A stretch of DNA of 64,000 bases from Methylomonas montana (GTDB taxonomy: Bacteria; Pseudomonadota; Gammaproteobacteria; Methylococcales; Methylomonadaceae), in NCBI RefSeq assembly GCF_030490285.1, contig NZ_CP129884.1:2790001-2854000 (forward strand), in the 5' to 3' direction. How positions within the stretch are numbered: the first letter of the stretch is position 1; the number at the start of each line of letters is the position of its first letter. The position numbers and the translations under genes are program-made. This document shows positions 190 to 26,413 of the stretch, piece by piece. The notes under the pieces were generated by a model. The model was not told where the DNA came from. It worked only from the letters and a program-made list of their open reading frames with translations, and did no database searches.

Positions 190-467
190 AGCCGTTGATA
201 GCGGTCGTATGGGGTGAAATAGGTCATGGGTCTTCTTGGATTGGGCGTCGGCCTAGGCCGCCATTTTACCAAACACCGGGCCTTACCGTTAGAAAGTCAG
301 GCAGGCCGCTAGACAATTAAGCTGCCGTCCACTTTAATATCTACTGTCAACGCAATAAATCCGTCGCCTTTTTTCAAACCTCCAAGACAGTCGCCGTCGT
401 CAACTTAACGATGAAGTCGTTGACTACCATCAACTGTCACATCCGCACGTCCATAAGGAATCAGACA

Positions 468-3400
468 ATGATAATACACCCATTAAGCAAAGCCATATTG
501 GTCATTTTGATTGCAAGTGCCACAAGTATCACACCGCAGTCGGCATGGGCCGACACAATCGTTGTCGCCGGCAGTGATGGCGTCAACGGTACACATGGTG
601 TGTCAGGCTATCTAGTAGGCACCGATGGTGGAAACGGTACAGATGGAAGCGATGCTTCGGCGCTCGCTAATGGATCAACCATAGATAACAACGCAACTGC
701 AACCGCTGGAATCGGGGGTACTGGCGGCAATGGCGGCAATGGTACGCAGATTGGAGGAAATGGCGGGCATGGCGGTAGAGGCGGCGACGCCCACGCAACC
801 GCGATCACCGATCTAAGCCGCGGCTTAACCACGTCGGCCTCGGCCTCGGCGTTTGCCGGTAGTGGAGGTATCGGTGGCATTGGCGGTTATGGTTCTGAAA
901 TCGCCGGAAGCGACGGTAGTGCGGGAACCGGCGGTGACGCTTCGGCTGCCGCGTTATCCCGAAATACCGGAAGCGGCGGAAGCACCGCCGGCACGGTTGC
1001 ATACGGCGGTACCGGCAGCGTTGCCACGTCTGGCGGCAACGCGAATTCAATTGCCTCCTCAATCGCTGCCGAGAATGGAGGAAGTACTGCCAACGCAATT
1101 TCATACGGCGGTACCGGCGGCAATGGCGCTTCTGGCGGCCAGGCAAATTCAATAGCAAGCGCAACCTCTGCCGGAGGGACCGGCGTAACGACCGCGCAAA
1201 GCACCGCCCATGGCGGTAATGGTGGTCAAGGGCTGGCTCCGCAAGATCCAGTTAGCAATTATGAGAAAGGAGGAGATGGCGCGGCAAGTGAGGCGGTCGC
1301 CAGAGGCAGTTCCAGCGGCGGCGGTGATGTCCAAGTTTACGCTTACCAATTTGGGGGTAACGGTGGTAATAGTGGTGAGTACAACAGCTATAGGGGCAGT
1401 AGTGCCGGCAACGGCGCTGATTCAATTATGTCAGGTGCCGTCCATGGATCCACCACTGGCATACTGACCCTGGGCCAATATGCCTATGGCGGTGGTGGCG
1501 GTAACAGCTGGTACGGTTCCGGTGGGATGGGCGGTAAGGCCCGCTCCAGGCTATATGAAGAAAATAACGAAAGCCGTTTGCTGAACACCAGAACGAATGC
1601 CATTGGAGGTATCGGGGGCGATACTATCGGGGGCGATAGCATCTATGGCGCTGTCACCGCCTCCGGCGGCGATGCCATAGCCCTTAACACCACAATTAGC
1701 TATGGCGACGACCACAACATTAATGCCGTCAGTTACGCCGAAGGTGGTAGAGGTGGCAATCCGGTGCTTTTTAGTCTTCCCGGCGCTGGCGGTAATAGTA
1801 CTAGCCAAACCTCCGTTACCGCCACTGGTAACAGCGCGGTCCAAGTCGACGATAAAGCGGTCGGCGGTAATGGCAGCTACGATGGCCACCACCAAGTATT
1901 TTCCGGCAAAGGCGGTAGCGCCTCTTCCGACGCAAGTGCCAGCAATAGCGGCAATCGAGACGTTTCTGTTTCCAGTACGGCTATTGGCGGAGCCGGCGGT
2001 GCTGCTCCAAAATCTAGCGGTGGGACAAGTAGTGCTCGGGCCAGCGGCAGGTCTGGCGGAGGCGGCAATGTCACGGTTATCGCCCACCAATACGGCGGTA
2101 CCAGCGTTGATTCCAGCATGTTGAATGCGGTAACCGGTTCGACCAGCGGAGTTTTAACGCTAAAACAATATGCTTATGGCGGCGACGGCGGTGGAAGTAC
2201 CGAGCCCGGAGCTACTCATGGAAACGGCGGCAAGGCCTCCTCAATACTGAGTGTAACCGATACCGACAGCAGCGTATTGAACACCACGACAGTAGCCATC
2301 GGCGGCACCGCTGGCATTGTGCGCGGGGGCAGTCACGACCGCGGCGGCGATGCGATTGCACGCAACGACACGACCAGCATCGGTGACGGACATAGCATTT
2401 ATGTCAACAGCAACGCCGAAGGCGGTAAATACGGCATGGGGGACGGAACAGGCAACGATAATAATGGCAAGGGGGCCAATGCCACCAGCCACTCTAACGG
2501 CACCGCCATCGGTAACAGTAATGTCCATGTCAGCGATAAAGCAACTGGCGGTAGTGGCGGGTACCTTTATTTTGACTCCATTGGCAACAATGGTGGCGCC
2601 GCCGTCTCAAACGCAAACGCCAGTAACAGCGGCAATCAATCGGTCTACGCGTCAAGTAACGCCACTGGCGGCACCGGCGGATTGACGGATTATAATACGC
2701 AAGGCCTAGCCGGCGATGCGCAAGCCCACACCAAAGCGATCAGCACCGCAGGGTTTGCCTCAAGCTCGGCAATTGCAACGGCTGGTACGGGTTCAGCTCT
2801 TGCCAATCTTGTCACCGCCGATGCTACCTCGGTGGGTGGTAACGGTTCGTATGCAAACGCCTTAGCCGGCCAAAGTGGTTATGCTTCAGTCTCCGCCGAA
2901 GCTAGCGTTCCCGATACCGTTGCAGGTACCAGCGACGTAAAAGCTACGCTTGGACAACCGGCGCCAGTCACCGCATCGGCGAATGACAAACAAGCTGTCG
3001 CCTATGCCACCGCTTTACCTTTGTCGACCGATGTGACCGCTGCGTTGGCTAATCATGCCAATGTCAATCGCAATTTCAATGCCGGTACCGATGCGCAAGC
3101 TTGGTTGTTGGGTAATCAAGGCGTATTAAATACCGCCGTCGATGGCAACTTTCATGACTATTCCAGCAAGATAGATCTGATCATCAATACGGCTGGCTAT
3201 ACCAATCAACAAGACTTATTGCTGGGCTTGCTGTCTCCAGTATTGGGTGGCAGCAATCTGGGTATTAACGATACCCTGACATTTAATATCGTTGTATCCG
3301 GAGTCGGCGGTACTCTATCGAAAAACTATAGCTTTAGCGATTTGCTTGATATAAACGCACCTGGCAGCGGCGCTAATTTCTTCCACGACAAAACCCTGGA

Positions 3401-3623
3401 CTTAGGCGCGTGGTCAGAATTTGTGACTGCGGCCAACGCCAACCTGGACATCACCTTAAGCCTTAATCTGCATACACACACTAGCAATACCGGGCTGAGC
3501 TTTAATTACATTCTAGGTAACTCGCTGGTTAGCGCCGTACCAGTACCGGCTGCTTTCTGGTTATTTGGCTCGGCATTCTTGGGTTGGATCGGCTTTAATC
3601 GTCGCAAATACGCGACTGTTTAA
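468..3623 (+). CDS. Giant glycine-rich exported protein with VPxPA-type CTERM anchor
   Basis: Chosen start is ATG 468: AAGGA sits 8 bases upstream and a signal peptide ending near SAWA|D follows at once. An in-frame ATG at 411 would bury that signal. The product is 1051 residues. After the signal peptide come about 750 residues of Gly/Ala/Ser/Asn-rich sequence full of GGxGG and GGNG motifs, resembling PE_PGRS or other Gly-rich surface repeats. A more ordinary domain of about 250 residues follows. The C-terminus is a VPVPAAFWLFGS motif, a hydrophobic stretch and a basic NRRK tail. That order is the signature of exosortase-processed (PEP-CTERM / VPxPA-CTERM) proteins, so export and surface or extracellular-matrix anchoring is inferred. 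Sequence 978-2681 shows internal tandem duplications. No catalytic motif is visible. A hairpin terminator follows at 3647. Confidence 0.85.
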   Translation: MIIHPLSKAILVILIASATSITPQSAWADTIVVAGSDGVNGTHGVSGYLVGTDGGNGTDGSDASALANGSTIDNNATATAGIGGTGGNGGNGTQIGGNGGHGGRGGDAHATAITDLSRGLTTSASASAFAGSGGIGGIGGYGSEIAGSDGSAGTGGDASAAALSRNTGSGGSTAGTVAYGGTGSVATSGGNANSIASSIAAENGGSTANAISYGGTGGNGASGGQANSIASATSAGGTGVTTAQSTAHGGNGGQGLAPQDPVSNYEKGGDGAASEAVARGSSSGGGDVQVYAYQFGGNGGNSGEYNSYRGSSAGNGADSIMSGAVHGSTTGILTLGQYAYGGGGGNSWYGSGGMGGKARSRLYEENNESRLLNTRTNAIGGIGGDTIGGDSIYGAVTASGGDAIALNTTISYGDDHNINAVSYAEGGRGGNPVLFSLPGAGGNSTSQTSVTATGNSAVQVDDKAVGGNGSYDGHHQVFSGKGGSASSDASASNSGNRDVSVSSTAIGGAGGAAPKSSGGTSSARASGRSGGGGNVTVIAHQYGGTSVDSSMLNAVTGSTSGVLTLKQYAYGGDGGGSTEPGATHGNGGKASSILSVTDTDSSVLNTTTVAIGGTAGIVRGGSHDRGGDAIARNDTTSIGDGHSIYVNSNAEGGKYGMGDGTGNDNNGKGANATSHSNGTAIGNSNVHVSDKATGGSGGYLYFDSIGNNGGAAVSNANASNSGNQSVYASSNATGGTGGLTDYNTQGLAGDAQAHTKAISTAGFASSSAIATAGTGSALANLVTADATSVGGNGSYANALAGQSGYASVSAEASVPDTVAGTSDVKATLGQPAPVTASANDKQAVAYATALPLSTDVTAALANHANVNRNFNAGTDAQAWLLGNQGVLNTAVDGNFHDYSSKIDLIINTAGYTNQQDLLLGLLSPVLGGSNLGINDTLTFNIVVSGVGGTLSKNYSFSDLLDINAPGSGANFFHDKTLDLGAWSEFVTAANANLDITLSLNLHTHTSNTGLSFNYILGNSLVSAVPVPAAFWLFGSAFLGWIGFNRRKYATV
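978..1178 (+). repeat. Two tandem ~100-bp units inside the glycine-rich gene
   Basis: Units 978-1079 and 1080-1178 each encode GGSTA, then an A(Y/I)SYGGTG-like stretch, then SGG(N/Q)ANSIAS. Both the DNA (GGCGGTACCGGC, AATTCAAT) and the protein are close, which indicates recent in-frame duplication. Confidence 0.7.
1317..2681 (+). repeat. Two large tandem units (~740 and ~625 bp) inside the glycine-rich gene
   Basis: Unit 1 (about 1317-2057) and unit 2 (about 2058-2681) carry the same ordered landmarks. These are GG(D/N)V.V.A.Q.GG, then GST(T/S)G(I/V)LTL.QYAYGG, LNT.T.AIGG, GGDAIA.N, AEGG, GNS.V.V.DKA.GG, and A.ASNSGN...S..A.GG.GG. The order is kept while the spacers differ, so the protein grew by duplication of a 210-250 residue module. 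Confidence 0.75.
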
Positions 3624-3881: not shown

Positions 3882-4134
3882 CGATGGTTTTCCAGAATCT
3901 CGCATAGCCGTATAGTTTTAATACGACCTATCGCTATTTACCAAGTCGGTTTATAGAAAAAACTGCTGCGTTTAACCAAATATCGTTAAAAATCCATTTT
4001 CAATATGTGGATAATATGACAGCCTAGGGTTTTCAAGAGCACATATATAAATTTCTCTTATACTTCCAGCCATCATTCGCCATCTAAAGTCCGCCGCAGC
4101 TCATGATCCACTTACGCCCTTGCCCCGACCCTAC

Positions 4135-6120
4135 ATGCGCGCGCTGAGAATTCCCGCTCTCTTGATGGCGCACGTAGTTTCGGCGATGGCTAGCGAAACC
4201 TCGCCGGAAGATTTAACCGATCTTTCGCTCGAGCAATTGTTAAATCTGGAAGTCATCAGCGCCTCTCGCTTGGGACAAAAAAGCAGCCAAGCCCCTACCT
4301 CGGTTTCGATTCTGACCGCAAACGACATTCGTACCTTCGGCTGGCGGACACTGGCGGAGGCCTTGAACAGCATGCGCGGCCTGTTCACCAGCAACGACCG
4401 CAATTATAGCTATCTGGGCATACGCGGTTTCATGCGCGGAGGGGATTACAACTCGCGAATATTGCTGATGATAGACGGTCAACGCATGAACGAAAACATC
4501 TACGACGGCGGCTACATCGCCCAAGAATTTATGCTGGATATGGATCTGGTGGAGCGCATCGAATACATCCCCGGTTCCGGGTCTTCGATCTACGGCGCCA
4601 ATGCTTTTTTGGGAATGATCAATGTCGTGACCAAGCAAGGCAAGGCCATCGACGGCAGCCAATTAGCCGGCGAAATCGGCACGTTCGACACCTATAAGGG
4701 CCGCGTCAGTTACGGCAAAACCTTGAAGAACGGCACCGACCTATTATTTTCGGCTTCGCATTACGACACGGCCGGCGTTGAAAACCTCTATTTTCCGGGA
4801 TACGACAGCCCGGAAACCAATAACGGCATCGCCCACAAGATGGACGACGAACGCGCCGACCGGCTATTCGGCAAAATCAAATTCGAAGAATTGACGCTCA
4901 GCGGCGGCTACGTCGATCGCGGCAGACACGTCCCGACAGCGGCCTTCGACGGAATTTTCAACGACCCGCTCTTTTTCACCGACGACAAGCAGTTTTTTTC
5001 CAACTTAAAATACGAAAAGGCTTTAAACGAAAACACCTCACTGTTACTGAAAGGCTTTTATCAAGGTTACGATTATTACGGCGACCAGGCTTACATCGTC
5101 AACGACGCCAGGGTGATCAATCACGACGAAGCCAGTGGCCGTTGGTGGGGCGGCGAGGCGCAATTGACCACCCACCCTTTCGAGGGCCACCGACTGATCG
5201 CGGGCCTGGAATATCAATATGACCAACGCCAGCGCCTGCTCAATTACGATTTAGATCCGTATTTGCCGTATCTGGAAAGTCACCGCAATGGCCATCGGGT
5301 GGAAGTCTATCTGCAAGACGACATCCAACTGCTGGACGATCTGGTATTCAGCGCTGGCGCGCGCCTGGATTATCATCATATGCTGAAGAACCTACAACTC
5401 AATCCGCGCGTTGGCCTGATTTGGAGTCCGCTGACCAACACACAGTTTAAACTTCTATACAGCTCGACATTCCGGGCGCCGAACGCTTGGGAGCGCGACT
5501 ATAACGCTTTTGGATTCGTCGATAATCCCCTGATGCGCGAGGAACAGATCAAAAGCTACGAGGCGATTGCGGAATGGCGTTCGGACAGCAATCTGCGTTT
5601 GCTGGGCACCTTGTTCTACAACGACATCTCCCAATTATTGGAAGGCCATCTCACCGGCGATGCCGACGGCAATTATGCGTTGATCAACGCCGGCCGATTT
5701 CACGCCTACGGCGGCGAATTGGAAGCCGAAAAGCGTTGGAGTAACGGTCGTTTATTAAAAGCCTCCTATACCTATAGCCTATTAACCAACGAAAACCGCC
5801 ATGGCGCATGGGCCAACGCCTCCCCGCAAAACCTTTTCAAATTGCACTACGCCGAACCGCTGTTCGACAACTATCTGAGTTTAGGTTTGGAAAGCATATT
5901 TATCGATAGTCGCAAAAACGGTCTAGGCGGCAAGGTCAACGGTTACGAATTAGTCAATATTAACCTCAGTTCCGATAAATTGATCCATGGTCTGGATACC
6001 TCGTTTGGGATATACAACGTGTTCGATAGCCATTACCAAATGCTGGGCGTCAGCGAGAATATCGATGTGCTGCGCATGAATGGTAGGGAGTTTCGTTTGA
6101 AATTTCAGCTGACATTTTGA
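4135..6120 (+). CDS. TonB-dependent outer-membrane receptor (first of a pair)
   Basis: The 661-residue product starts with a short signal peptide (MRALRIPALLMAHVVSAMA); a TTG at 4120 is an alternative start. The N-terminal mature motif DLTDLSLEQLLNLEV is common in receptors encoded beside signalling genes. A plug domain follows (about 50-170, with APTSVSILTANDIR and DLVERIEYIPGSGSSIYGANA), then a 22-strand-type barrel ending in aromatic Phe. There is no STN domain, so it is not a classical FecA-type signalling receptor. The ligand is unknown. The next receptor follows after a 12-base gap and a YfiR-like gene after that. I infer it delivers or senses a ligand for the module. Confidence 0.88.
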   Translation: MRALRIPALLMAHVVSAMASETSPEDLTDLSLEQLLNLEVISASRLGQKSSQAPTSVSILTANDIRTFGWRTLAEALNSMRGLFTSNDRNYSYLGIRGFMRGGDYNSRILLMIDGQRMNENIYDGGYIAQEFMLDMDLVERIEYIPGSGSSIYGANAFLGMINVVTKQGKAIDGSQLAGEIGTFDTYKGRVSYGKTLKNGTDLLFSASHYDTAGVENLYFPGYDSPETNNGIAHKMDDERADRLFGKIKFEELTLSGGYVDRGRHVPTAAFDGIFNDPLFFTDDKQFFSNLKYEKALNENTSLLLKGFYQGYDYYGDQAYIVNDARVINHDEASGRWWGGEAQLTTHPFEGHRLIAGLEYQYDQRQRLLNYDLDPYLPYLESHRNGHRVEVYLQDDIQLLDDLVFSAGARLDYHHMLKNLQLNPRVGLIWSPLTNTQFKLLYSSTFRAPNAWERDYNAFGFVDNPLMREEQIKSYEAIAEWRSDSNLRLLGTLFYNDISQLLEGHLTGDADGNYALINAGRFHAYGGELEAEKRWSNGRLLKASYTYSLLTNENRHGAWANASPQNLFKLHYAEPLFDNYLSLGLESIFIDSRKNGLGGKVNGYELVNINLSSDKLIHGLDTSFGIYNVFDSHYQMLGVSENIDVLRMNGREFRLKFQLTF

Positions 6121-6132
6121 GACGGATTGCTT

Positions 6133-8217
6133 ATGTCTTCCTCTAATCGATTTAAACGCGCCGCATCCATCAGCTTGCTGGTTGGGCTGGGACTGTCCGT
6201 AGCGCAAGCCGCCAATCAAGTGCCGGAAAACGAGAATCTGCCGGATTTGACCGCACTGAGCGTCGAACAGTTAATGAACCTCGACGTCACCTCGGTGATG
6301 AAAGTCCCCACCGATGTCAGCCATGTACCCGCCGCGATCTATGTGCTGAGCAACGAAGAAATCCGCCGGACCGGCGCCACCAGTATTCCGGAAGCACTCC
6401 GCGTGGTACCCGGGCTACACGTTGCCAAGGTCGACGGCAACAAGTGGGCGGTATCGGTACGCGGTTTTAGTAGTCAATTTGTCAATAAACTACTGGTACT
6501 GGTGGACGGCCGTAGCGTTTATAACCCGCTCTTTTCCGGAGTCTGGTGGGATCAACAAGACGTGATGATGGATGACATCGAACGCATCGAAGTGATCCGC
6601 GGTTCGGGCGCCAGCTTATGGGGTGCCAATGCGGTCAACGGCGTCATCAACATCATCACCAAATCCGCCAAGGACAGCCAAGGCGGCTTACTGGCCAGCC
6701 ATGTCGGCAACCAACGTTACGGTGGCGGCATTCGCTACGGTGCCGATCTTGGCGACGATGCTTATCTAAAAGTCTACGGCCGCCACGCCGAATATGGCGA
6801 CTCAAAAACCCTGGGCGACGCCAATTCCGCCGGCGACGAAGGCCAACTCAGCAAAATCGGCTTTCGTTACGATAAAGCCATCGATATTTCCAATAAACTG
6901 AGCTTGCAAGGCGACGCTTTTCTGGGCGAAAGCAACGGCGCGCCCCAAAGCTTTCCATACCTGTCCTCGCACCTGACGCCGGTGACAGCACCGCCCTACT
7001 CCCGTCTATTGCCTACCAGCCAGTTATTCTCCGGCCACTATATCCAAGGTCGCTGGGAACAGCATCAGGGCGCCGACTCCAATACCGTGCTGCGCCTGTA
7101 TTGGGATAGACATAGCCGAAAATCGCCATATCTGGATTCCGAGTATCAAATCGATAACGTCGACATCGATTTTCAACACAACTACAAGATCGACCGGCAT
7201 TTATTGGTTTGGGGCAGCGGCGTCCGTTTCAATCTGAATAATTTTCAGGATAGCGCTCAGATTGCTATGCTCGCGAACAACCGCACCGACCGCATCTATA
7301 GTCTGTTCGCCCAAGACGACATCACCTTGGTACCCGATCGCTGGCGACTGACCTTAGGCAGCAAACTGGAGCACAACCCCGTGACGCAGTTTGAGGTGCA
7401 ACCGAACGCGCGCTTGCTGTGGACACCCAACGAACAGCAATCGTTTTGGGGTTCGGTCTCCCGCGCGGTACGCACCCCCAATTGGGTGGAGCAAAACATC
7501 TCCTATAGTTTGCAGACCCGGCCGCCCGTCGGTGACGGCGCCGCCAATCCCGCCAACCCGGCGCTTATCCGCGGTTTGGTGGGCAATCCCGATCTGACTG
7601 CCGAAAAGATGATCGCCTTCGAATTGGGATGGCGTGGCCAATTACATAGGCAATTGAGCGTCGACGTGGCCTTGTACCATTACAGCTATGACGATTTCGC
7701 CAGCCTGTCGCCCAATGCCTTGGACACCACGCATATCGGCGCCAGCTATTTACTGCAAACCGTCAGTTACAGCAACTATGGCCAGGTGAAAGTCTATGGC
7801 GGCGAGATCAGCGCCGACTGGCAAGTGAATGAGGACTGGAAACTGCGCGCCACCTATAGTCACGAAGAGGAACAATTTCGCCTGTCCAGCACCGCCCCCG
7901 CGTTTACCACTATGACATCCGGCGACAGTTATCCGGCCAACAAAGCCATGCTCTGGTCCATGTTCCAACTGACGCCACAACTCCAGCTGGACTTAAACTG
8001 GCGTTATTCCGATGCGGCCAGTATCGACGCGGCGCGGCCACGCGCCTATCAGGATTTGGACGGGCGCTTGGCCTGGGACGTGGGTTCCGGCGTCGAATTG
8101 GCGCTAGTGGGTCGCAATTTGCTCAACAGCTATCACTTCGAATACGGCTCGGACATGTTTTCGACAGCGACGGCCGTGCAACGCGAGGTGTATGGCACCT
8201 TGCGCTGGCAATTCTAA
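6133..8217 (+). CDS. TonB-dependent outer-membrane receptor (second of a pair)
   Basis: Product of 694 residues from ATG 6133, with a clear signal peptide ending SVAQA|AN. A TTG six bases earlier also opens the frame. The LTALSVEQLMNLDV motif is followed by a plug domain (PAAIYVLSNEEIRR; DDIERIEVIRGSGASLWGAN; NGVINIITK) and a barrel ending RWQF. It is a paralogue of the receptor just upstream, matching it over the N-terminal motif and plug, but the barrels differ. The two probably recognise different ligands or work as a pair. Short spacing suggests co-transcription. Confidence 0.88.
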   Translation: MSSSNRFKRAASISLLVGLGLSVAQAANQVPENENLPDLTALSVEQLMNLDVTSVMKVPTDVSHVPAAIYVLSNEEIRRTGATSIPEALRVVPGLHVAKVDGNKWAVSVRGFSSQFVNKLLVLVDGRSVYNPLFSGVWWDQQDVMMDDIERIEVIRGSGASLWGANAVNGVINIITKSAKDSQGGLLASHVGNQRYGGGIRYGADLGDDAYLKVYGRHAEYGDSKTLGDANSAGDEGQLSKIGFRYDKAIDISNKLSLQGDAFLGESNGAPQSFPYLSSHLTPVTAPPYSRLLPTSQLFSGHYIQGRWEQHQGADSNTVLRLYWDRHSRKSPYLDSEYQIDNVDIDFQHNYKIDRHLLVWGSGVRFNLNNFQDSAQIAMLANNRTDRIYSLFAQDDITLVPDRWRLTLGSKLEHNPVTQFEVQPNARLLWTPNEQQSFWGSVSRAVRTPNWVEQNISYSLQTRPPVGDGAANPANPALIRGLVGNPDLTAEKMIAFELGWRGQLHRQLSVDVALYHYSYDDFASLSPNALDTTHIGASYLLQTVSYSNYGQVKVYGGEISADWQVNEDWKLRATYSHEEEQFRLSSTAPAFTTMTSGDSYPANKAMLWSMFQLTPQLQLDLNWRYSDAASIDAARPRAYQDLDGRLAWDVGSGVELALVGRNLLNSYHFEYGSDMFSTATAVQREVYGTLRWQF

Positions 8218-8325
8218 TCGGTCCCGAACAGTATGCATTCAATACGACATCCGGCACCGAAGGCGATGCATGCAAAGGCCCTGTTTAACGACAGCGGCTT
8301 GGCTGTCGATGTGTCTGACATTTCA

Positions 8326-8880
8326 ATGCATGCGCCGACGCCGACAAAATCGGCGAATGGCGTGGGGTTCGGCAAGGTGTTGTTATTGGTGTTGATGATC
8401 ACAGCAAGTCCTTGTTTTGCGGAAGCGGCCAGCGAAGCGGCCGTCAAAGTGGCTTTTTTGTATAACTTTTTTAAATTTATCGAATGGCCTGAGACTATTG
8501 CCGGCCCAAACCACTACACTTTGTGCCTGACCAGTCATAACGATTTCGGCAATAACCTGCTGATGTTGGAGGGAAAAACCGTGAACGGCAAACCGCTCAA
8601 CGTGATTCAGGACATCGCTGTCAAAGACCTGAAAACCTGCCATATGCTTTATGTCAGCGCGAACGACAATCCCGCCGATTATGCGCGTGAGCTAAAAGGC
8701 TTGCCTATCGTCTCGGTCAGCGACAAATCCGGTTTCATCGAACAAGGCGGCATCATCGGCTTACTGCAAGACGGCAATCGGCTCGGCTTTGAAATCAATT
8801 TGAATAGCGCCGATGCCAGCAAACTTCGTTTCAGCGCTCAATTGTTGAAATTGGCTAAAAATATTAACGCCAACAAATGA
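8326..8880 (+). CDS. YfiR-family (DUF4154) periplasmic protein
   Basis: From ATG 8326 the product is 184 residues, with a signal peptide ([10 protein letters not shown] core, cleavage near CFA|EAA). An ATG at 8233 would add 31 residues in front of it, and neither start has a good ribosome site. The mature part opens [20 protein letters not shown], the hallmark of YfiR/DUF4154. Two cysteines (CLTS, TCHM) and a GLPIVSVSD / GGIIGLL core fit the family fold. In Pseudomonas, YfiR is a periplasmic repressor that binds the CHASE8 domain of the cyclase YfiN. Here the next gene, overlapping by four bases (ATGA), encodes a membrane kinase whose periplasmic domain looks CHASE8-like, so a direct contact is inferred. 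Confidence 0.85.
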
Positions 8881-11621
8881 TGGATAAACTCACCAATTTA
8901 CCGATGACCTACAAGCTGCAACGCTTACAGGCTATCACTTTGGCACTGGCCTTGCTATTTACCTTGCTGATTACCAGCGTCACCCAGGCTTGGCAGGAAA
9001 GACGGGAGCTGGCCACCGAAATCCGCTCGCTAGGCCGAATGATAGGCTTTAATGCCAATGCCGCGTTGCTGTTCGGGGACAACAAAACCGGCTCGGATAT
9101 CCTCGCCACCTTGCGCGGTAAACCCGAAATCGTCTCCGCGCAGTTGTACAACCGGGATGGCGGCATTTTTGCGTACTATCCGGCCACTGCCGATTTCGAC
9201 AGTTTTCCGGCCAGCCTCGGTAATGCGCAAGCATTGCAACGCCAGCAAGGCATACCGCTTTTCAGCCTGACTATCCTGCATCCCTTGTCGGACGATAGCG
9301 GCGAGGTGATCGGCACATTACGCTTATTGATCGATCTGCTGCCGATGTGGCAAACCATAGGCGGTAGTCTCAGCCGAATTTTTCTGGCCATGTTGGTATC
9401 GTTTATGTTGGCGGCCTGGTTCGGACGCCGCTTGGCAACCTCGATCGCCGCGCCGTTGACGCGTTTATCCCTATTGGCTAAACAGGTCTCGGTCGACAAC
9501 AATTATATGGTGCGCGCCAAAGGCGAAAGCGCGGACGAAATCGGCCAGCTGGTAAAAAGTTTCAACCAGATGATAGAACGGATACAACAACGCGACGCAG
9601 AGCTGGAAAGCCAACGCGGCAGCCTGGAAAAAGAAGTCGATTTGCGCACGGCCGATTTACGTCAAGCGGTAAGCGAAGCACAAGCCGCCAATATTGCCAA
9701 ATCGCAATTTTTAGCGACCATGAGCCATGAAATCCGGACGCCGATGAACGGCGTACTGGGTATGACCGAACTATTGCTGGGAACCGATCTGAATAACACT
9801 CAGCGCCAATACGCGGAAACCGCGTTCAGTTCGGCCGATTCCCTGCTAACCGTGATCAACGACATTCTGGATTTTTCTAAAATCGAGGCTGGCAAGCTGG
9901 AACTGGAAGAAATCGATTTCAGCTTGATCAATCTCACCGATCAACTCACCGCCTTGTTCTTCGAACGGGCCAACAGCAAAAATATAAGCCTGCTTTGCGA
10001 AGTCGGCGCCGACGTACCGAGGGACGTCAGAGGCGACCCTTACCGTTTGCGGCAAATTCTCACCAACCTATTATCCAATGCGATCAAATTCACCGAAGCC
10101 GGCAGCGTCAAACTGCAGATCGGCGTCGCCGGCCCCGGCCAGTGTCAATCAAATATAGGCATTTGCCTGGAGTTTCGGGTCAGCGATACCGGTATCGGCA
10201 TTGCGGAAGACGTGATGTCGCGTTTATTCAAATCCTTCAGCCAGGCCGACGGCTCGACCACCCGCAAATATGGCGGCACCGGCCTCGGATTGGTAATCTG
10301 TAAGGAATTGAGCGAATTGATGGGCGGGAATATCGAGGCGCAAAGCCAAACTAATGCCGGCTCGGTATTTACCGTGCATATTCCCTTGCGCGATGCCCAA
10401 ACCTCCCTGCCCAGTATTCAACCGAACGCTAATTTGCAAGACAAACTGGCATTGCTGGTGGAAGACGATGCGATCAACGCCGAGATTTTGGAAAACCATC
10501 TCAACGACTTGGGCATGCGAACCCGCGTTGCTAAAAACGGCGCGCAGGCCTTGAAAATTCTCGATCAATCCAGTCACGCGGGACAGGTTTTCGATGTCGC
10601 CGTGCTGGACATGGAAATGTTCGATATGAACGGCGTGGAACTAGCCCAATCCATTCGCGGCGACGCCCGCTTTACCGATATGCGCATCATCATTGCTTCC
10701 AGCAGCGATGATAGACAACTAGCGGCGATGCGCGCCGGCGCCTACGATCTGTATTTGCACAAACCGATACACAGACAGGTGTTGCAAGACGCGCTGCTCG
10801 ATGTGCTGGCGAGAACGCCGCTGTCGGCCTGGCGTCCAACGCCGTCCGGCTCCGGCGCGCATATTCTGTTGGCCGAGGATAATCCGGTCAATCAGAAAAT
10901 CTGTAACGCCATGCTGCGCCAACTCGGTTACGCAATTTCGGTCGCCAATAACGGCCGCGAGGTGCTGGATATTTTCAAGCGCGAGCCGCCGGACCTGATC
11001 CTGATGGACTGCATGATGCCGGAGATAGACGGATATACCGCGGCAGCGCGAATCCGAGACCTGGAGCGCGATACCCATTTAAACCGAATCCCCATCATCG
11101 CGCTGACCGCCAATGCGATGGAGGGCGACCGTGAAAAATGTTTGCTGGCCGGCATGGACGATTATTTGAGCAAACCCTTCCTGCAGAAAACCTTGCACGA
11201 CAAGATACAAGCGCTGATCGATGTTAATTCGAAACCGCCACGCAACCTTCCCGCGCCGGAACCGGTGAAAGTGGATGCTGGTGCTGCCAAATTCGATCCG
11301 GCACCCTTGAATACGCTGCGCAAGATGGGCGGCTGCGCCTTGGTCGAAGAGGTCTTGACGCTGTTTCGCGAAAACGCCGCGCAACAAATCTCAGCCTTAG
11401 CGACCGCGTTAAAACAAGAGCAAGCAGAAGCGGTACGCCAGGCCGCGCATAGTTTAAAATCGGCTGCCGCCAATATTGGCGCCTTCCATCTTGCCGATCT
11501 GGCGCGCGACATCGAACTCGCCGCACGGGATAACAACTTGCAATTAGGTACCCAACTTGCCGAAAATTTGCAAAGCGAATATAAAGAAATATTACATTGG
11601 CTTTCGCAACTTAATTCTTGA
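8877..11621 (+). CDS. Hybrid histidine kinase, CHASE8-HAMP-HisKA-HATPase-REC-REC-Hpt
   Basis: Product of 914 residues. TM1 is about 17-38. A periplasmic domain of about 110 residues resembles CHASE8 of YfiN. TM2 is about 158-180, then HAMP, a coiled coil (about 230-275) and HisKA with phospho-His284 in [11 protein letters not shown]. HATPase_c follows, with DTGIGI and GGTGLGL boxes. Two receiver domains carry phospho-acceptors Asp578 (VLDMEM) and Asp711 ([12 protein letters not shown]), and a C-terminal Hpt carries His858 (AAHSLKSAA). All phosphorelay residues are present. It overlaps the YfiR-like gene by four bases. In the known YfiN the output is GGDEF; here it is a full phosphorelay, an unusual pairing. 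Its target may be the REC-GGDEF-EAL protein at 11865. Confidence 0.9.
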
Positions 11622-11623
11622 AC

Positions 11624-11875
11624 ATGGAACGCTTAACTACTCGCAGCGTTTTTCCGGCGATTGACGACGATAAAGAGCGTTTGCTGTCGAAAGACATCCG
11701 TCAACCGGAAGATTTTCAGACCAATACTGCCGAAAACATCAAACCTGACTGGGATGCAGTCAAAAACCAAGGTCCGAATCTAGCACGATGTTACCGGACA
11801 ACGGCTTTGAATTTGTGCCTTTCACGTGAAAACTTAACGCCCAAATCGCAGCTACCGGTTAATCATGACAGATAA
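11624..11875 (+). CDS. Possible small unknown protein (low support)
   Basis: An 83-residue reading frame from ATG 11624 fills the gap between the hybrid kinase and the GGDEF-EAL gene and overlaps the latter by 11 bases. It is hydrophilic, has no signal peptide, membrane segment or motif I recognise, and lacks a ribosome site. It may simply be an open stretch in a 240-base spacer. Confidence 0.2.
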   Translation: MERLTTRSVFPAIDDDKERLLSKDIRQPEDFQTNTAENIKPDWDAVKNQGPNLARCYRTTALNLCLSRENLTPKSQLPVNHDR

Positions 11876-14723
11876 GCCTTATATTTTGATCATTGACGAC
11901 GACCCGATAATCCGGTTACTAGTCAGCCAGGTGTTATCGGCCAGCGACTACGAAGTCATCGCCGCCGAAAACGGCCGAGACGGCCTAAAATGGTTCATCG
12001 AGACATCCCCGGCGCTAGTATTACTGGATGTGATGATGCCGGAAATGGACGGTTTCAGTTGTCTGCAAGCGATGCGAGCCACCCCGAACAAAACCATCCC
12101 CATCGTCATGATGACGGCTATCGAAGACGTACACGCCGTGGACGATGCATTTAAACTGGGCGCTACCGATTTTATCGGCAAACCCGTGCAATGGCCGCTA
12201 CTCCCTCATCGAATCGACTATGTCTTGCGTTCGCATCGAACCACTCAAAGCCTGCTCGAACAACAAAACTTACTGAAGCAAAGCGAGCAGCGCTTCCGGG
12301 ACCTGGTTGAAAGCATCAGCCGCGAATATTTTCTTTATTCTCGCGACACCGACTGCTTGTTTACCTATTTTGGACCTTCGGTGGAACATATCCTGGGTTA
12401 TAAACCGGATGAGTTATTGCGCCATTGTTTCGATAGCGCCGCCAATAATCCAATCAATGAGATCGCCAGCGCTTACGCCCGACAGTGTCTGACCGGCAGC
12501 ATACCGTCTAACTATGAAGTGGAAGTACATCGTAAGGACGGCAGCCTTCGTTTACTGAGTCTTAACGAATCGCCGGTTCTCGACGCCGAGCAAAGGGTAA
12601 TTGCCGTGAACGGTTTAGCTCACGACATTACCGAAATGCGCCTCACCCAACAGGCCTTGGCGGATAGCGAGGAACGTTTGCGACTGTGCATGCAGGCGGC
12701 AAAACAAGGCTTTTACGATCTGAACCCGCAAGCACACGTCATCATCGTCAATGCGGAATATGCCAACATGCTCGGCTACGATCCGGCAAACTTTGACGCT
12801 AGTTACGAGGCGTGGCAAGCGCGTCTGCATCCTGATGACCGGTTTCGGGCTATTGACAGTTACCAGCGCTACGTGGCCGGTGAACTTGACGAATACCGCG
12901 TTGAATATCGCCTGCGTTGCGCCGACGACAGCTGGAAATGGATATTATCGATCGGCAGCATCGTCGAGCGTGATGCACAGGGCCAGCCATTGCGAATGTT
13001 GGGCACCTACACCGACATCACCGACAGCAAAATGGCCGCCGAACGCCTACATTTGCTGGCCAAGGTGTTCGAAAATAGTGGCGAGGCAATTTTCCTGTGT
13101 GCACCGAATACTCGTATCGTTTCCGCCAATCAAGCCTATACCAATATTACCGGCTACCGCGCCGAAGAAGTCTTGGGGCAAGTTCCGCCGATATTGGACG
13201 TCCAACATCTCGACCTGAGTCAATATCAGCGTATCTGGCAAGCGCTGCGAGAAAACGGCTATTGGCAAGGCGAAGTGAGGGACACCCGCAAAAACGGTGA
13301 ATCCTATCCAGCCTGGTTGGGTATATCGGCAATCTACGATACCCAGGACGCAATAAGTCATTACATCGGCATTTTCTCCGACATCACCGAGCGTAAAGCC
13401 GCCGAAGCGCAAATCGAATATATGGCTCGCCACGATCCGCTTACCAATCTACCCAATCGCACCTTGTTGCACGACCGCTTCGATCAAGCCATGGCACATG
13501 CAGTGCGTAATGCCACACTCGTCGGCGTACTGTTCCTGGATCTCGATCGTTTCAAACATATCAACGACACCATGGGCCACGATGTCGGCGACCGCTTGCT
13601 GCAAGGCATCGCCTCACGACTGGTTCAATGCGTGCGGGAAGTCGATACGGTTTGCCGGCAAGGCGGCGATGAGTTCATCATTATCCTCACCGACATTCCC
13701 GAAGTCGAAACCATTACCCAAATTGCGCTTAAAATTCTCGATCAATTGAGCCAGCCTTTTCTGCTGGAAGGCGTGACTGTCAGCACCTCTTTCAGTATCG
13801 GTATCAGTTTATATCCAAACGACGGCCTAAATTTTCACGGTCTGCTCAACAAAGCCGACACCGCGATGTATGCGGCCAAAAACCAGGGTCGCAATACGTT
13901 CCGCTTCTTTTCTGACGATATGAATCTGGCTTCGATCGAGCGGATGAATATCGAAAACGGCCTGCGTCTGGCCTTGCAGCGAAACGAATTTCGGCTGCAC
14001 TACCAACCGCAATATTTCATACGCGAAAACAGGTTGATCGGCGCGGAAGCCTTGCTGCGCTGGCAGCCGGAAAACGGCGAGATGATCTCACCCTCTAAAT
14101 TCATCCCGATCGCCGAAGAGAACGGCCTGATCGTGCCGATAGGCGATTGGGTATTGCGCGAGGCCTGCCGGCAAAATAAGGTCTGGCACGATGCCGGTTT
14201 AAAACTGCTGGTGACCGTCAATATCTCGGCCTTACAGTTCAAGCGCGGCAATTTACTGGAGTTGGTGAAAGCAGCGCTGACCGAATCTCAACTGGAACCG
14301 CATTATTTAGAACTGGAACTGACCGAATCGGTGCTGATGATCGATACCGACGCCGTGATCGACACCATCGCCCAATTGCGGGCGTTAGGCGTCAGTTTGG
14401 CTATCGACGATTTCGGTACCGGTTATTCCTCGCTTAGCTACCTGAAACGCTTTGCGGTGAACAAACTAAAAATCGATCAATCGTTTATTCGGGATATGAA
14501 TTCTGGCAAAGTCGAAGACACCGCAATCGTCCAAGCCATCGTGCAATTGGGCCAGACCTTGGGCCTGCTGACCTTGGCCGAGGGCGTGGAAACCCGCGAA
14601 CAAGTCGAACAACTCAACCTATTGGGCTGCCGAAAAGCTCAAGGTTTTTATTGGCATCGCCCCCTGCCCGCGGAGGAATTTACCCGGCTTTTCAGTCCGG
14701 CGCGAAAGAGTCATCCCGCTTAA
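11865..14723 (+). CDS. Response regulator with REC-PAS-PAS-PAS-GGDEF-EAL domains
   Basis: Product of 952 residues, cytoplasmic. REC is 1-120 with Asp55 in LLDVMMPEMDGF. Three PAS/PAC units follow (about 145-265, 270-390 and 395-515, each closing with a DIT motif). The GGDEF domain keeps the active motif at 600-604, preceded by REVD, the RxxD inhibitory site. The EAL domain has EALLRW at 728 and the conserved DDFGTGYSSL loop. Both catalytic halves look intact, so it could make or degrade c-di-GMP depending on phosphorylation and PAS ligands. It lies downstream of the hybrid kinase on the same strand, making it the likely relay target. Its stop overlaps that of the convergent gene by three bases. 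Confidence 0.9.
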   Translation: MTDKPYILIIDDDPIIRLLVSQVLSASDYEVIAAENGRDGLKWFIETSPALVLLDVMMPEMDGFSCLQAMRATPNKTIPIVMMTAIEDVHAVDDAFKLGATDFIGKPVQWPLLPHRIDYVLRSHRTTQSLLEQQNLLKQSEQRFRDLVESISREYFLYSRDTDCLFTYFGPSVEHILGYKPDELLRHCFDSAANNPINEIASAYARQCLTGSIPSNYEVEVHRKDGSLRLLSLNESPVLDAEQRVIAVNGLAHDITEMRLTQQALADSEERLRLCMQAAKQGFYDLNPQAHVIIVNAEYANMLGYDPANFDASYEAWQARLHPDDRFRAIDSYQRYVAGELDEYRVEYRLRCADDSWKWILSIGSIVERDAQGQPLRMLGTYTDITDSKMAAERLHLLAKVFENSGEAIFLCAPNTRIVSANQAYTNITGYRAEEVLGQVPPILDVQHLDLSQYQRIWQALRENGYWQGEVRDTRKNGESYPAWLGISAIYDTQDAISHYIGIFSDITERKAAEAQIEYMARHDPLTNLPNRTLLHDRFDQAMAHAVRNATLVGVLFLDLDRFKHINDTMGHDVGDRLLQGIASRLVQCVREVDTVCRQGGDEFIIILTDIPEVETITQIALKILDQLSQPFLLEGVTVSTSFSIGISLYPNDGLNFHGLLNKADTAMYAAKNQGRNTFRFFSDDMNLASIERMNIENGLRLALQRNEFRLHYQPQYFIRENRLIGAEALLRWQPENGEMISPSKFIPIAEENGLIVPIGDWVLREACRQNKVWHDAGLKLLVTVNISALQFKRGNLLELVKAALTESQLEPHYLELELTESVLMIDTDAVIDTIAQLRALGVSLAIDDFGTGYSSLSYLKRFAVNKLKIDQSFIRDMNSGKVEDTAIVQAIVQLGQTLGLLTLAEGVETREQVEQLNLLGCRKAQGFYWHRPLPAEEFTRLFSPARKSHPA

Positions 14724-24661: not shown

Positions 24662-24693
24662 AGCTATTGCGAACCATTGAACTTCACGCCGAC

Positions 24694-25206
24694 ATGCCCA
24701 ATCGCCATATTCGCCTCATGGACTTTCTGTTCCAAAGACACAACAAGGAACTGCTGGTGTTCGCCGAACAACGCGCCGGCCGCCAACATGCCGAGGATCT
24801 GGTTCAGGATGCTTATCTCAGGCTCTTGCAGCACGGCAACACCGACGCCATCGACAACCATCGCGCCTATCTGTATCGCATCACTGCCAACCTGAGCGGC
24901 GACCTGCATAGACGCGGGCAAATCGTCCCTTTTGTCAACGACGAGGAATCGGAAACGGATACCCTAGCCTGTCCGATGCCGCAACCCGATGCGGTCGCCG
25001 AAAGCCGGGAACGCCTGCGAATTTGCCTGCGATCCCTGGACAGCCTGCCGGAAATCGTCCGCACCGTGTTCCTGTTGCATCGCGTCGATGGCCTGACGTA
25101 TACCGAAATCGCCAAGGCTTTCGCGATCCCGCCGCGCACCGTCGAGCGCTATTGCATCAAGGCGCTGGCCCACTGCAGCAAATCCGTCAACCGGGGCTTT
25201 GACTAA
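24694..25206 (+). CDS. ECF sigma factor, FecI/FpvI type
   Basis: About 170 residues from ATG 24694; TTG 24667 and ATG 24718 are alternative starts. Region 2 is recognisable (AGRQHAEDLVQDAYLRLL and DNHRAYLYRITANL), as is region 4 (LDSLPEIVRTVFLLHRVDGLTYTEIAKAF, then PPRTVERYCIKALAHC). This is the FecI-like group that transcribes TonB-receptor genes after a signal from a FecR partner. The FecR-like gene follows 57 bases later and an STN-bearing receptor after that, so its target is most likely the promoter in 26245-26413. Confidence 0.9.
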   Translation: MPNRHIRLMDFLFQRHNKELLVFAEQRAGRQHAEDLVQDAYLRLLQHGNTDAIDNHRAYLYRITANLSGDLHRRGQIVPFVNDEESETDTLACPMPQPDAVAESRERLRICLRSLDSLPEIVRTVFLLHRVDGLTYTEIAKAFAIPPRTVERYCIKALAHCSKSVNRGFD

Positions 25207-25263
25207 TATCGGCAAATCCCGTCCGGCCGTCGCAGCCGGTTGCGGATGCGATACACTAAAGCC

Positions 25264-26244
25264 ATGAACCGACTCACCCCGCCAATTTCTCCATCGCTGC
25301 ACGAACAAGCCAGTCATTGGGTGGTCAGACTGCACGCACCCGATTGCTCGGCCAGCGAGCGCCGGGCGTTTCAGGATTGGCTGGCGTTAAGCCCTCGCCA
25401 TCGCCAGAGCTATCAAAACGCCGAAGCGATTTGGCGAGATTTTAGTAGCGTCGACGCACAACCCGACCCGCGACTGATTGCGGCCAGAAACGGATTACGC
25501 CGTGCGCAAATCGCGCGTCGCCGGGCAATCCACGGCAAACGGCTGTCGATAGCCGCCTCGTTACTGATAGCGGCAATAGGCGTGCCGCTGGCCTGGGACT
25601 GGATAAACACCGACCGTTATTTGACGCTGAAAGGCCAACGGCAACACATCGCGCTCCGCGATGGCTCGACGATCGAACTCAACAGCAACAGCCAGATACG
25701 AGTCCACTACGGCTGGCGCAGCCGCGAAGCGGTGCTGGAACGCGGCGAAGCGTTATTCAACGTGGCGCACGACGAGAGCAAACCATTCGACGTCGTCGCC
25801 GGCAATGGCAAGATCCACGACATCGGCACCCGTTTCAACGTGCGTTTGCTAAACAACGCCGTCACGGTCAGTGTGCTGGAAGGCGAAGTCGCCGTTGCCA
25901 CCGAACATCGGCCTATTCCGCAAAATCTGGCGGCCGGCCAGCAGATTAAATACGATGCTGCTGGCCTAGCATCGTCCGCGCCGACCAGTTTCGACGCCAC
26001 TACTGTCGCCGCCTGGCGGGAAGGCATGCTGGTATTTAAAAAGACCGCGCTGGCTGAAGTTCTGGAACAGCTGAGCCGTTATCACGACGTCGAACTCAGT
26101 GTCGCCGACCCGCAATTGCAAAACCTTAAAGTCAGCGGCGACTTTCCCACCGACGACTTGAATCTTGCCCTCAATGCCATCAGCGCTGCGTTGCCGATCA
26201 AGGCTGTTCGAAAAAACGAGCGACTGATCGAATTCGAACGCTGA
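25264..26244 (+). CDS. FecR-type transmembrane anti-sigma regulator
   Basis: Product of 326 residues from ATG 25264. The cytoplasmic N-terminal DUF4880 region (HEQASHWVVRLHAPD, FQDWLALSPRHRQSY) binds the sigma factor in this family. One membrane helix follows (about 85-103; SIAASLLIAAIGVPLAW). The periplasmic FecR domain (LRDGSTIELNSNSQI, GEALFNVAHDESKPFDV, VSVLEGEVAV) and a C-terminal DUF4974-like domain contact the receptor STN domain. It passes the receptor-occupied signal across the inner membrane to the ECF sigma encoded upstream. Confidence 0.92.
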   Translation: MNRLTPPISPSLHEQASHWVVRLHAPDCSASERRAFQDWLALSPRHRQSYQNAEAIWRDFSSVDAQPDPRLIAARNGLRRAQIARRRAIHGKRLSIAASLLIAAIGVPLAWDWINTDRYLTLKGQRQHIALRDGSTIELNSNSQIRVHYGWRSREAVLERGEALFNVAHDESKPFDVVAGNGKIHDIGTRFNVRLLNNAVTVSVLEGEVAVATEHRPIPQNLAAGQQIKYDAAGLASSAPTSFDATTVAAWREGMLVFKKTALAEVLEQLSRYHDVELSVADPQLQNLKVSGDFPTDDLNLALNAISAALPIKAVRKNERLIEFER

Positions 26245-26413
26245 CCACGCCCACATCAATCTCCGCTTCGCGGATACCGTTAGAACTAGCCATTGAATCG
26301 TTGTAATCCGCACCTTTTAAATATTTTTAACCCATCGAAAAAAAAGTGGCGCCTTCACCATAGATAACCGCTCTTACTGGGTAGTGAAATCACCACACAC
26401 CACGGGAGGGCAA

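Follow-up and report, generated by a model that had tools for sequence, protein, structure and literature searches.

A TonB receptor, YfiR-like protein and CHASE8 kinase gene block in Methylomonas montana: a candidate relay from the outer membrane to c-di-GMP

In the genome of Methylomonas montana, a single contig of 4.63 Mb, a stretch of 64,000 nucleotides (bases 2,790,001-2,854,000 of NZ_CP129884.1, hereafter the window) carries between its positions 4135 and 14723 the genes of two TonB-dependent receptors (TBDR1 and TBDR2), a YfiR-like periplasmic protein, a hybrid histidine kinase with a CHASE8 sensor domain, and a REC-PAS-GGDEF-EAL response regulator. The block is genuine, recurs widely and has been catalogued in part. 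Most probably it serves as a relay from the outer membrane to cyclic di-GMP (c-di-GMP), the step from receptor to YfiR-like protein being the weakest link. That it forms a module of three layers, in which a TBDR acts through the YfiR-like protein on the CHASE8 kinase relay and thereby on c-di-GMP, is a proposal whose chances I consider evenly balanced.

According to this proposal, the receptors would capture a ligand at the outer membrane and might also import it, and a short box at their N-terminus (the N-box), unfolded and facing the periplasm, would report the state of the receptor to the YfiR-like protein. The latter would bind the AAxxF-D patch of the CHASE8 domain and set the activity of the kinase, whose His-Asp-His-Asp relay (HisKA, REC, Hpt) would pass phosphate to the REC of the GGDEF-EAL protein and change the level of c-di-GMP. 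TonB receptors known to signal mostly take the FecA/FecR/sigma route. If the proposal is correct, many receptors annotated as nutrient transporters would serve kinase and c-di-GMP pathways as sensors at the cell surface, and there would be a concrete candidate for what YfiR systems sense; the N-box, a short target, makes the model directly testable.

The gene block and its relation to YfiBNR

The features of the block are as follows (ORF, open reading frame; HMM, hidden Markov model).

4135-6120, + strand: TBDR1 (Pfam Plug 61.8 bits, barrel 109); TTG at 4120 opens the ORF, ATG at 4135
4210-4269, + strand: N-terminal box of TBDR1, DLTDLSLEQLLNLEVISASR (N-box HMM 47.0 bits)
6127-8217 (ATG at 6133), + strand: TBDR2, TOL_0244-like receptor (Plug 79.8 bits, barrel 117.1)
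6244-6303, + strand: N-terminal box of TBDR2, DLTALSVEQLMNLDVTSVMK (N-box HMM 44.0 bits)
8233-8880, + strand: YfiR-like periplasmic protein, DUF4154 part at 8440-8859 (PF13689 131.8 bits, cut-off 24.9)
8877-11621, + strand: hybrid kinase, CHASE8-HAMP-HisKA-HATPase-REC-REC-Hpt (Pfam), CHASE8 at 9000-9326
9060-9080, + strand: CHASE8 patch AALLFGD, counterpart of the predicted YfiR-binding AAVVF in YfiN
about 11624-11715, + strand: remnant of a response-regulator gene, the start of a gene kept by relatives
11865-14723, + strand: REC-PAS-GGDEF-EAL response regulator (Pfam domains; GGDEF, RxxD and EAL motifs)

An initial annotation of this DNA had placed a YfiR/DUF4154 gene and a REC-PAS-GGDEF-EAL gene here, with the whole block on one strand and a four-base overlap between yfiR and the kinase gene. 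The ORFs and Pfam matches agree on each point, bases 8877-8880 being common to the two ORFs. The same annotation had likened the periplasmic part of the kinase to CHASE8, correctly: PF17152 matches at 50.0 bits against a cut-off of 27, and on this score, together with the conserved AALLFGD patch, a mis-called CHASE8 was rejected. A phmmer comparison of the kinase N-terminus with the PDB gave a best E of 0.78. Among the 169 CHASE8 rows that adjoin a YfiR, the F of the patch is present in 166 and the D in 167. The His and Asp boxes of kinase and regulator are intact, as judged by eye, and so are the GGDEF, RxxD, EAL, DDFG and EGVE motifs of the protein at 11865. Scans for promoters (8 found, 10.4 expected) and terminators (17 found, 15.4 expected) stayed near expectation.

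The AlphaFold2 (AF2) model of residues 66-215 of the YfiR-like protein has a confidence score (pLDDT) of 94 and finds YfiR as its top PDB matches, so that the fold by which YfiBNR is recognized is predicted for the window protein. Since homology sets in around residues 44-48, followed by a signal peptide, its gene probably starts at GTG 8362 and not at ATG 8233. The six closest named loci are from Methylomonas (61-74% identity of the YfiR-like proteins). In alignment-based numbering, Phe162 of YfiR corresponds to the F of FEINL, in a column whose 190 rows include 129 with F and 40 with L. The Cys145-Cys152 pair of YfiR is absent from the window protein; both cysteines are present in only 4 of the 190 rows, three of them OmpA-linked (including E. 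coli) and the fourth L119 (L and G numbers denote loci and genomes). In an unrooted tree built by a quick method, the four classical-type YfiRs of the survey branch together on a long stem as a small clade, separate from 184 others, and the window protein is placed by its sequence outside that clade. It scores 40.4 bits with NF053586 (cut-off 85), a model that at E<=1e-20 recovers the E. coli control and matches none of the 274 genomes of the class.

The block was initially described as a rewired YfiBNR circuit, in which the receptors replace the lipoprotein YfiB and a phosphorelay replaces the direct GGDEF output. Compared with YfiBNR of P. aeruginosa and with YfiR-DgcN-YfiB of E. coli, the window has in common the DUF4154 fold, a CHASE8 domain with the predicted patch, the overlap of yfiR with the sensor gene and an output in c-di-GMP. 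It differs in having a TBDR instead of an OmpA-like YfiB, with no YfiB gene adjacent, in a sensor that is a kinase relay and lacks the GGDEF carried by YfiN, and in a YfiR-like protein without the second cysteine pair and in a separate clade. An OmpA model derived from three proteins of E. coli, which recovers such genes at L111, L117 and in E. coli, gave no hit at the window locus or beside the six modules of this genome. The exchange of YfiB for receptors holds as far as gene content goes, while the contact of receptor and YfiR would have to be presumed. The exchange of output fits the kinase domains on the sensor, the intact relay and c-di-GMP motifs and the kinase-regulator fusions of relatives described below. 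The recurrence of the gene set stands as well, but the word "rewired", which implies descent from YfiBNR, needs changing: since the classical YfiRs form one small separate clade in the unrooted tree, YfiBNR could equally be the offshoot.

Malone 2012 (PMC3375315) describes divergent Yfi operons without YfiB, whose outputs are a kinase, an Hpt or a GGDEF-EAL protein, and predicts that the AAVVF patch binds YfiR; the kinase outputs and the missing YfiB are therefore already published. The main text of that paper names no TonB receptor (0 occurrences of "tonb"). The NCBIfam models NF053590, NF053591 and NF053592 designate the same three partners by name (a TOL_0244 receptor, a TOL_0243 YfiR-like protein and a kinase "near YfiR-like") and propose no mechanism. 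For TBDR2 and the YfiR-like protein no other NCBIfam model scores higher, and the N-terminal part of the kinase is matched as well; the gene order of the window has the three side by side. Their cut-offs are not reached (600.6 bits against 645 for TBDR2 with NF053590, then 102.9 against 125 and 139.9 against 194). Further YfiR-like proteins also fall below the cut-off (6/6), and one of three further receptors passes. Literature searches found no paper on the trio of receptor, YfiR and kinase. New here are the N-box, a YfiR-like protein that its sequence sets outside the classical clade, kinase-regulator fusions, a triad with an ABC_sub_bind protein and a lost regulator gene.

The receptors and their N-terminal box

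The receptors had been called a paralogous pair. They are indeed homologous (35% identity over a 204-residue N-terminal alignment that covers mainly the N-terminal end and the plug, 23% over a second piece), but they belong to different subfamilies, and TBDR1 is closer to another receptor of the same genome (L230:7222-9231, 33% identity over 630 aligned positions), which adjoins an ABC_sub_bind protein. The AF2 model of TBDR2 has a pLDDT of 84.7, falling below 50 for residues 1-30 of the mature protein; its nearest known structures are Cir and BtuB, a resemblance that says little about the ligand. TBDR signalling of the FecIRA type is likewise directed inward. Unlike FecA, TBDR1 and TBDR2 have no Pfam match to the STN domain at E<=0.1, and FecA-type signalling by them was rejected on that ground. 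A canonical operon of that kind, with an extracytoplasmic function (ECF) sigma factor, FecR and an STN-containing TBDR, lies at 24667-28807, about 10 kb from the block.

Directly after the signal peptide, the module receptors have the N-box, with the consensus DLtdLSLEeLmnveVTSASKkeQkl. By eye, it occupies the position of the TonB box in ordinary TBDRs, and its VTS part may be the TonB box itself. In 35 aligned receptors, the N-box (residues 12-31) has a mean conservation of 0.63, below that of the plug (0.73) and above those of the barrel (0.45) and of the residues in front of the box (0.24). Leu21 is present in 35/35 and Glu19 in 32/35. A segment that is conserved and yet apparently unfolded is what one expects of a motif that binds a partner, and I infer that this partner is the YfiR-like protein.

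The distribution of the N-box was measured with an HMM made from 116 receptors of loci outside Methylomonas, the receptors of this genome and genus being excluded. With a threshold of 10 bits, 4/7 module receptors of the genome have it (6/7 with one of 5 bits), as do 50/61 plug genes of the genus and order loci. For comparison, 30 receptors were taken from the 154 plug matches of five DUF4154-free genomes and 30 from the 66 of three genomes with DUF4154, 8 of the latter 30 being module receptors; the 8/8 score of these 8 (genomes G141, G154 and G174) is not independent, as they belonged to the training set. Among the other receptors, 1/73 reaches 10 bits (0/21 in the own genome, 0/30 in DUF4154-free genomes, 1/22 in DUF4154 genomes) and 4/73 reach 5 bits. 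The N-box is thus largely specific to module receptors and rare in other TBDRs.

Recurrence of the gene set, its outputs and a probable gene loss

The genome contains 6 DUF4154, 6 CHASE8 and 28 plug matches, 27 of the latter over the Pfam cut-off and one, the Oar-like receptor of L009, below it. All six DUF4154 genes start 0.4-0.6 kb from a CHASE8 match and 1.9-3.5 kb from a plug, although the regions no more than 6.5 kb away from a plug add up to only 7.15% of the genome (p ~1e-7 for random placement). The outputs differ between modules: a hybrid kinase with a REC-PAS-GGDEF-EAL protein in the window and L009, a hybrid kinase with a REC-GGDEF protein in L007, a CHASE8-PAS-GGDEF-EAL protein in L008, a plain kinase in L010 and a kinase with one REC in L011. 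Simple patterns find GGDEF and EAL in the window output and GGEEF in that of L007. The L007 locus also has a CrtC/lipocalin-type gene between receptor and yfiR (L007:7699-8811), possibly an extra ligand-binding part.

Beyond this genome, 186 neighbourhoods and an E. coli control were surveyed with home-made HMMs, partly trained on proteins of the genome itself, and the survey called for by the initial annotation found the same gene set widely. YfiR has a plug no more than 6.5 kb away in 6/6 own, 50/51 genus, 4/4 order and 77/82 named rows, the genus rows being 51 DUF4154 matches in the few-contig genomes among the other 24 of the genus (8/24; one G009 match left out). The named loci are assigned to Nitrospirota, Acidobacteriota, Thermodesulfobacteriota, Omnitrophota, Calditrichota and others; L140-L219 are the best 80 of 475 by similarity, and many come from metagenome bins whose phylum labels may err. 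A neighbourhood unique to M. montana was accordingly rejected. In an even draw of 150 genomes of the phylum, 33 have DUF4154 (the own genome included), and the 46 over-cut-off matches outside the own genome were all taken; there a plug is found in 38/47 rows, or 37/46 if L087/L088 is counted as one YfiR. One of these receptors is on the opposite strand, and one row has an OmpA-like gene besides the receptor. The nine receptor-less rows comprise L111 and L117, with an OmpA-like gene and CHASE8-GGDEF as in E. coli, L107 and L120, which start at a contig end, the fusion L124, and L098, L112, L119 and L122, which have neither partner. Apart from the own genome, 27 genomes of the sample encode a TOL_0244-type receptor (E<=1e-80). 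DUF4154 is present in 25 of them, compared with 32/149 overall; the remaining two are G103, with a lone receptor (L223), and G158 (L224).

Gene fusions support both downstream links. The kinase is fused to a REC-GGDEF-EAL regulator in five genus and order loci (L043 by Pfam), and in L124:7045-9687 DUF4154 is naturally fused to one membrane helix (by hydropathy), a histidine kinase and a REC, with a long charged linker between DUF4154 and kinase that looks coiled-coil-like by eye. A REC-GGDEF/EAL gene lies near the kinase in 3/5 own, 22/40 genus and order (the 5 fused ones apart) and 26/67 named loci; coupling of the kinase to c-di-GMP is therefore frequent in Methylomonas without being general.

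In ten loci of relatives (L041, L071, L130, L140-L145, L155), two response-regulator genes follow the kinase. Alignments of the window with them by blastn end near 11715, roughly 100 bases or less into the first regulator, and resume at the second, some 2.1 kb on in the relatives. The remnant, when translated, resembles the start of the first regulator of L142, which keeps the EAL motifs and in which the GGDEF motif was not seen; hence, to judge from these alignments, a phosphodiesterase arm has probably disappeared from the lineage of the window along with this regulator gene. Gene gain in the relatives is less likely, since a remnant remains in the window.

Competing readings and a second triad

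Several observations weigh against a signal that runs from the receptor to c-di-GMP. The adjacency of the genes is, by itself, equally compatible with co-transport or co-regulation, and the physical contacts, the box as their site, the ligand and the way the signal runs are all things that I infer. The box is also found without a nearby YfiR (L268/L228, L223), scores below 5 bits in the Oar-like module receptors (L009, L045, L067, L073, L131) and in L064, and does not separate the own L014 (8.2 bits) and L022 (6.2 bits) from the non-module L023 (7.5 bits). The full five-residue patch pattern matches 135/169 CHASE8 rows, the remainder varying at the first positions. By simple patterns, L008 has GGDEF without EAL and L009 EAL without GGDEF, and in the phylum sample only 3/31 kinases have a REC-GGDEF/EAL gene nearby, so that c-di-GMP is not a universal output. 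Finally, over distant pairs, distances of YfiR correlate poorly with those of CHASE8 (0.21) and of the TBDR (0.16), which gives no signal of co-evolution beyond shared inheritance.

Binding proteins are known to act on kinases, as in LuxP-LuxQ and XylFII-LytS. Such systems resemble the block in having a fold of the periplasmic binding-protein kind beside a membrane kinase; here, an outer-membrane receptor forms part of the arrangement, whose adaptor is single-lobed. The receptor might accordingly do no more than import the ligand, with the YfiR-like protein, one lobe of the ABC_sub_bind type, sensing it in the periplasm and acting on the kinase without contacting the receptor. This deserves serious attention and is nonetheless unlikely: it leaves both the N-box and the single-lobe YfiR unexplained, and the affinities measured for YfiR are in the tens of millimolar. 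Nutrient receptors often adjoin their own regulators, and the YfiR-kinase system could instead control expression of the receptor, which would then be a target and not a sensor, adjacency reflecting local regulation. The own modules L010 and L011, which have no c-di-GMP gene, fit this idea, but the outputs in 4/6 own modules are c-di-GMP domain proteins and not DNA-binding ones, and the specificity of the N-box argues against it too; I regard it as distinctly improbable. Passive or chance clustering without any functional link is far-fetched and was rejected, given the random-placement p ~1e-7 in the own genome and the recurrence of the trio in contigs assigned to distant phyla. The partner fidelity in 51 modules of nine Methylomonas genomes, where the nearest YfiR goes with the nearest CHASE8 in 272/273 comparisons and with the nearest receptor in 262/273 (46 expected), is in line with such clustering, as joint inheritance of an operon would equally yield it and genetic linkage alone could account for it.

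Returning to the relay from receptor through YfiR-like protein to kinase, a second triad in the same genome (L230:3949-9231) has a similar arrangement: the receptor L023, an ABC_sub_bind protein (94.7 bits) and a GGDEF-EAL sensor, whose periplasmic part matches the home-made CHASE8 HMM at 26 bits, has no Pfam match and lacks the phenylalanine of the YfiR patch. One lobe of the ABC_sub_bind protein shares the YfiR fold. Of the 42 ABC_sub_bind matches in 41 relatives, 30 loci were read, and in 23/30 the gene has a receptor barrel on one side and a sensor, CHASE8-like or kinase, on the other; in the phylum sample, this is so in 4/29 new loci, 14/29 having a sensor. YfiR-like and ABC_sub_bind proteins thus appear to occupy the same place, and the parallel triads suggest an origin for the YfiR fold. 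A tentative and somewhat doubtful generalization is an architecture of several phyla, made of a boxed TBDR, an adaptor with a binding-protein fold (one-lobe YfiR-like or two-lobe ABC_sub_bind) and a CHASE8-type sensor, of which YfiBNR would be a small branch with an OmpA-like lipoprotein in place of the receptor.

Two neighbouring observations may be added. At L223:8995-11007, a box-bearing TOL_0244-type receptor adjoins genes that, by eye, are of exopolysaccharide type, in a locus with no YfiR. Upstream of the block, at 411-3623 of the window, lies the gene of a glycine-rich, exported-looking protein of 1070 residues without a Pfam match, whose C-terminal end, VPVPAAFWLFGSAFLGWIG, resembles a PEP-CTERM sorting signal.
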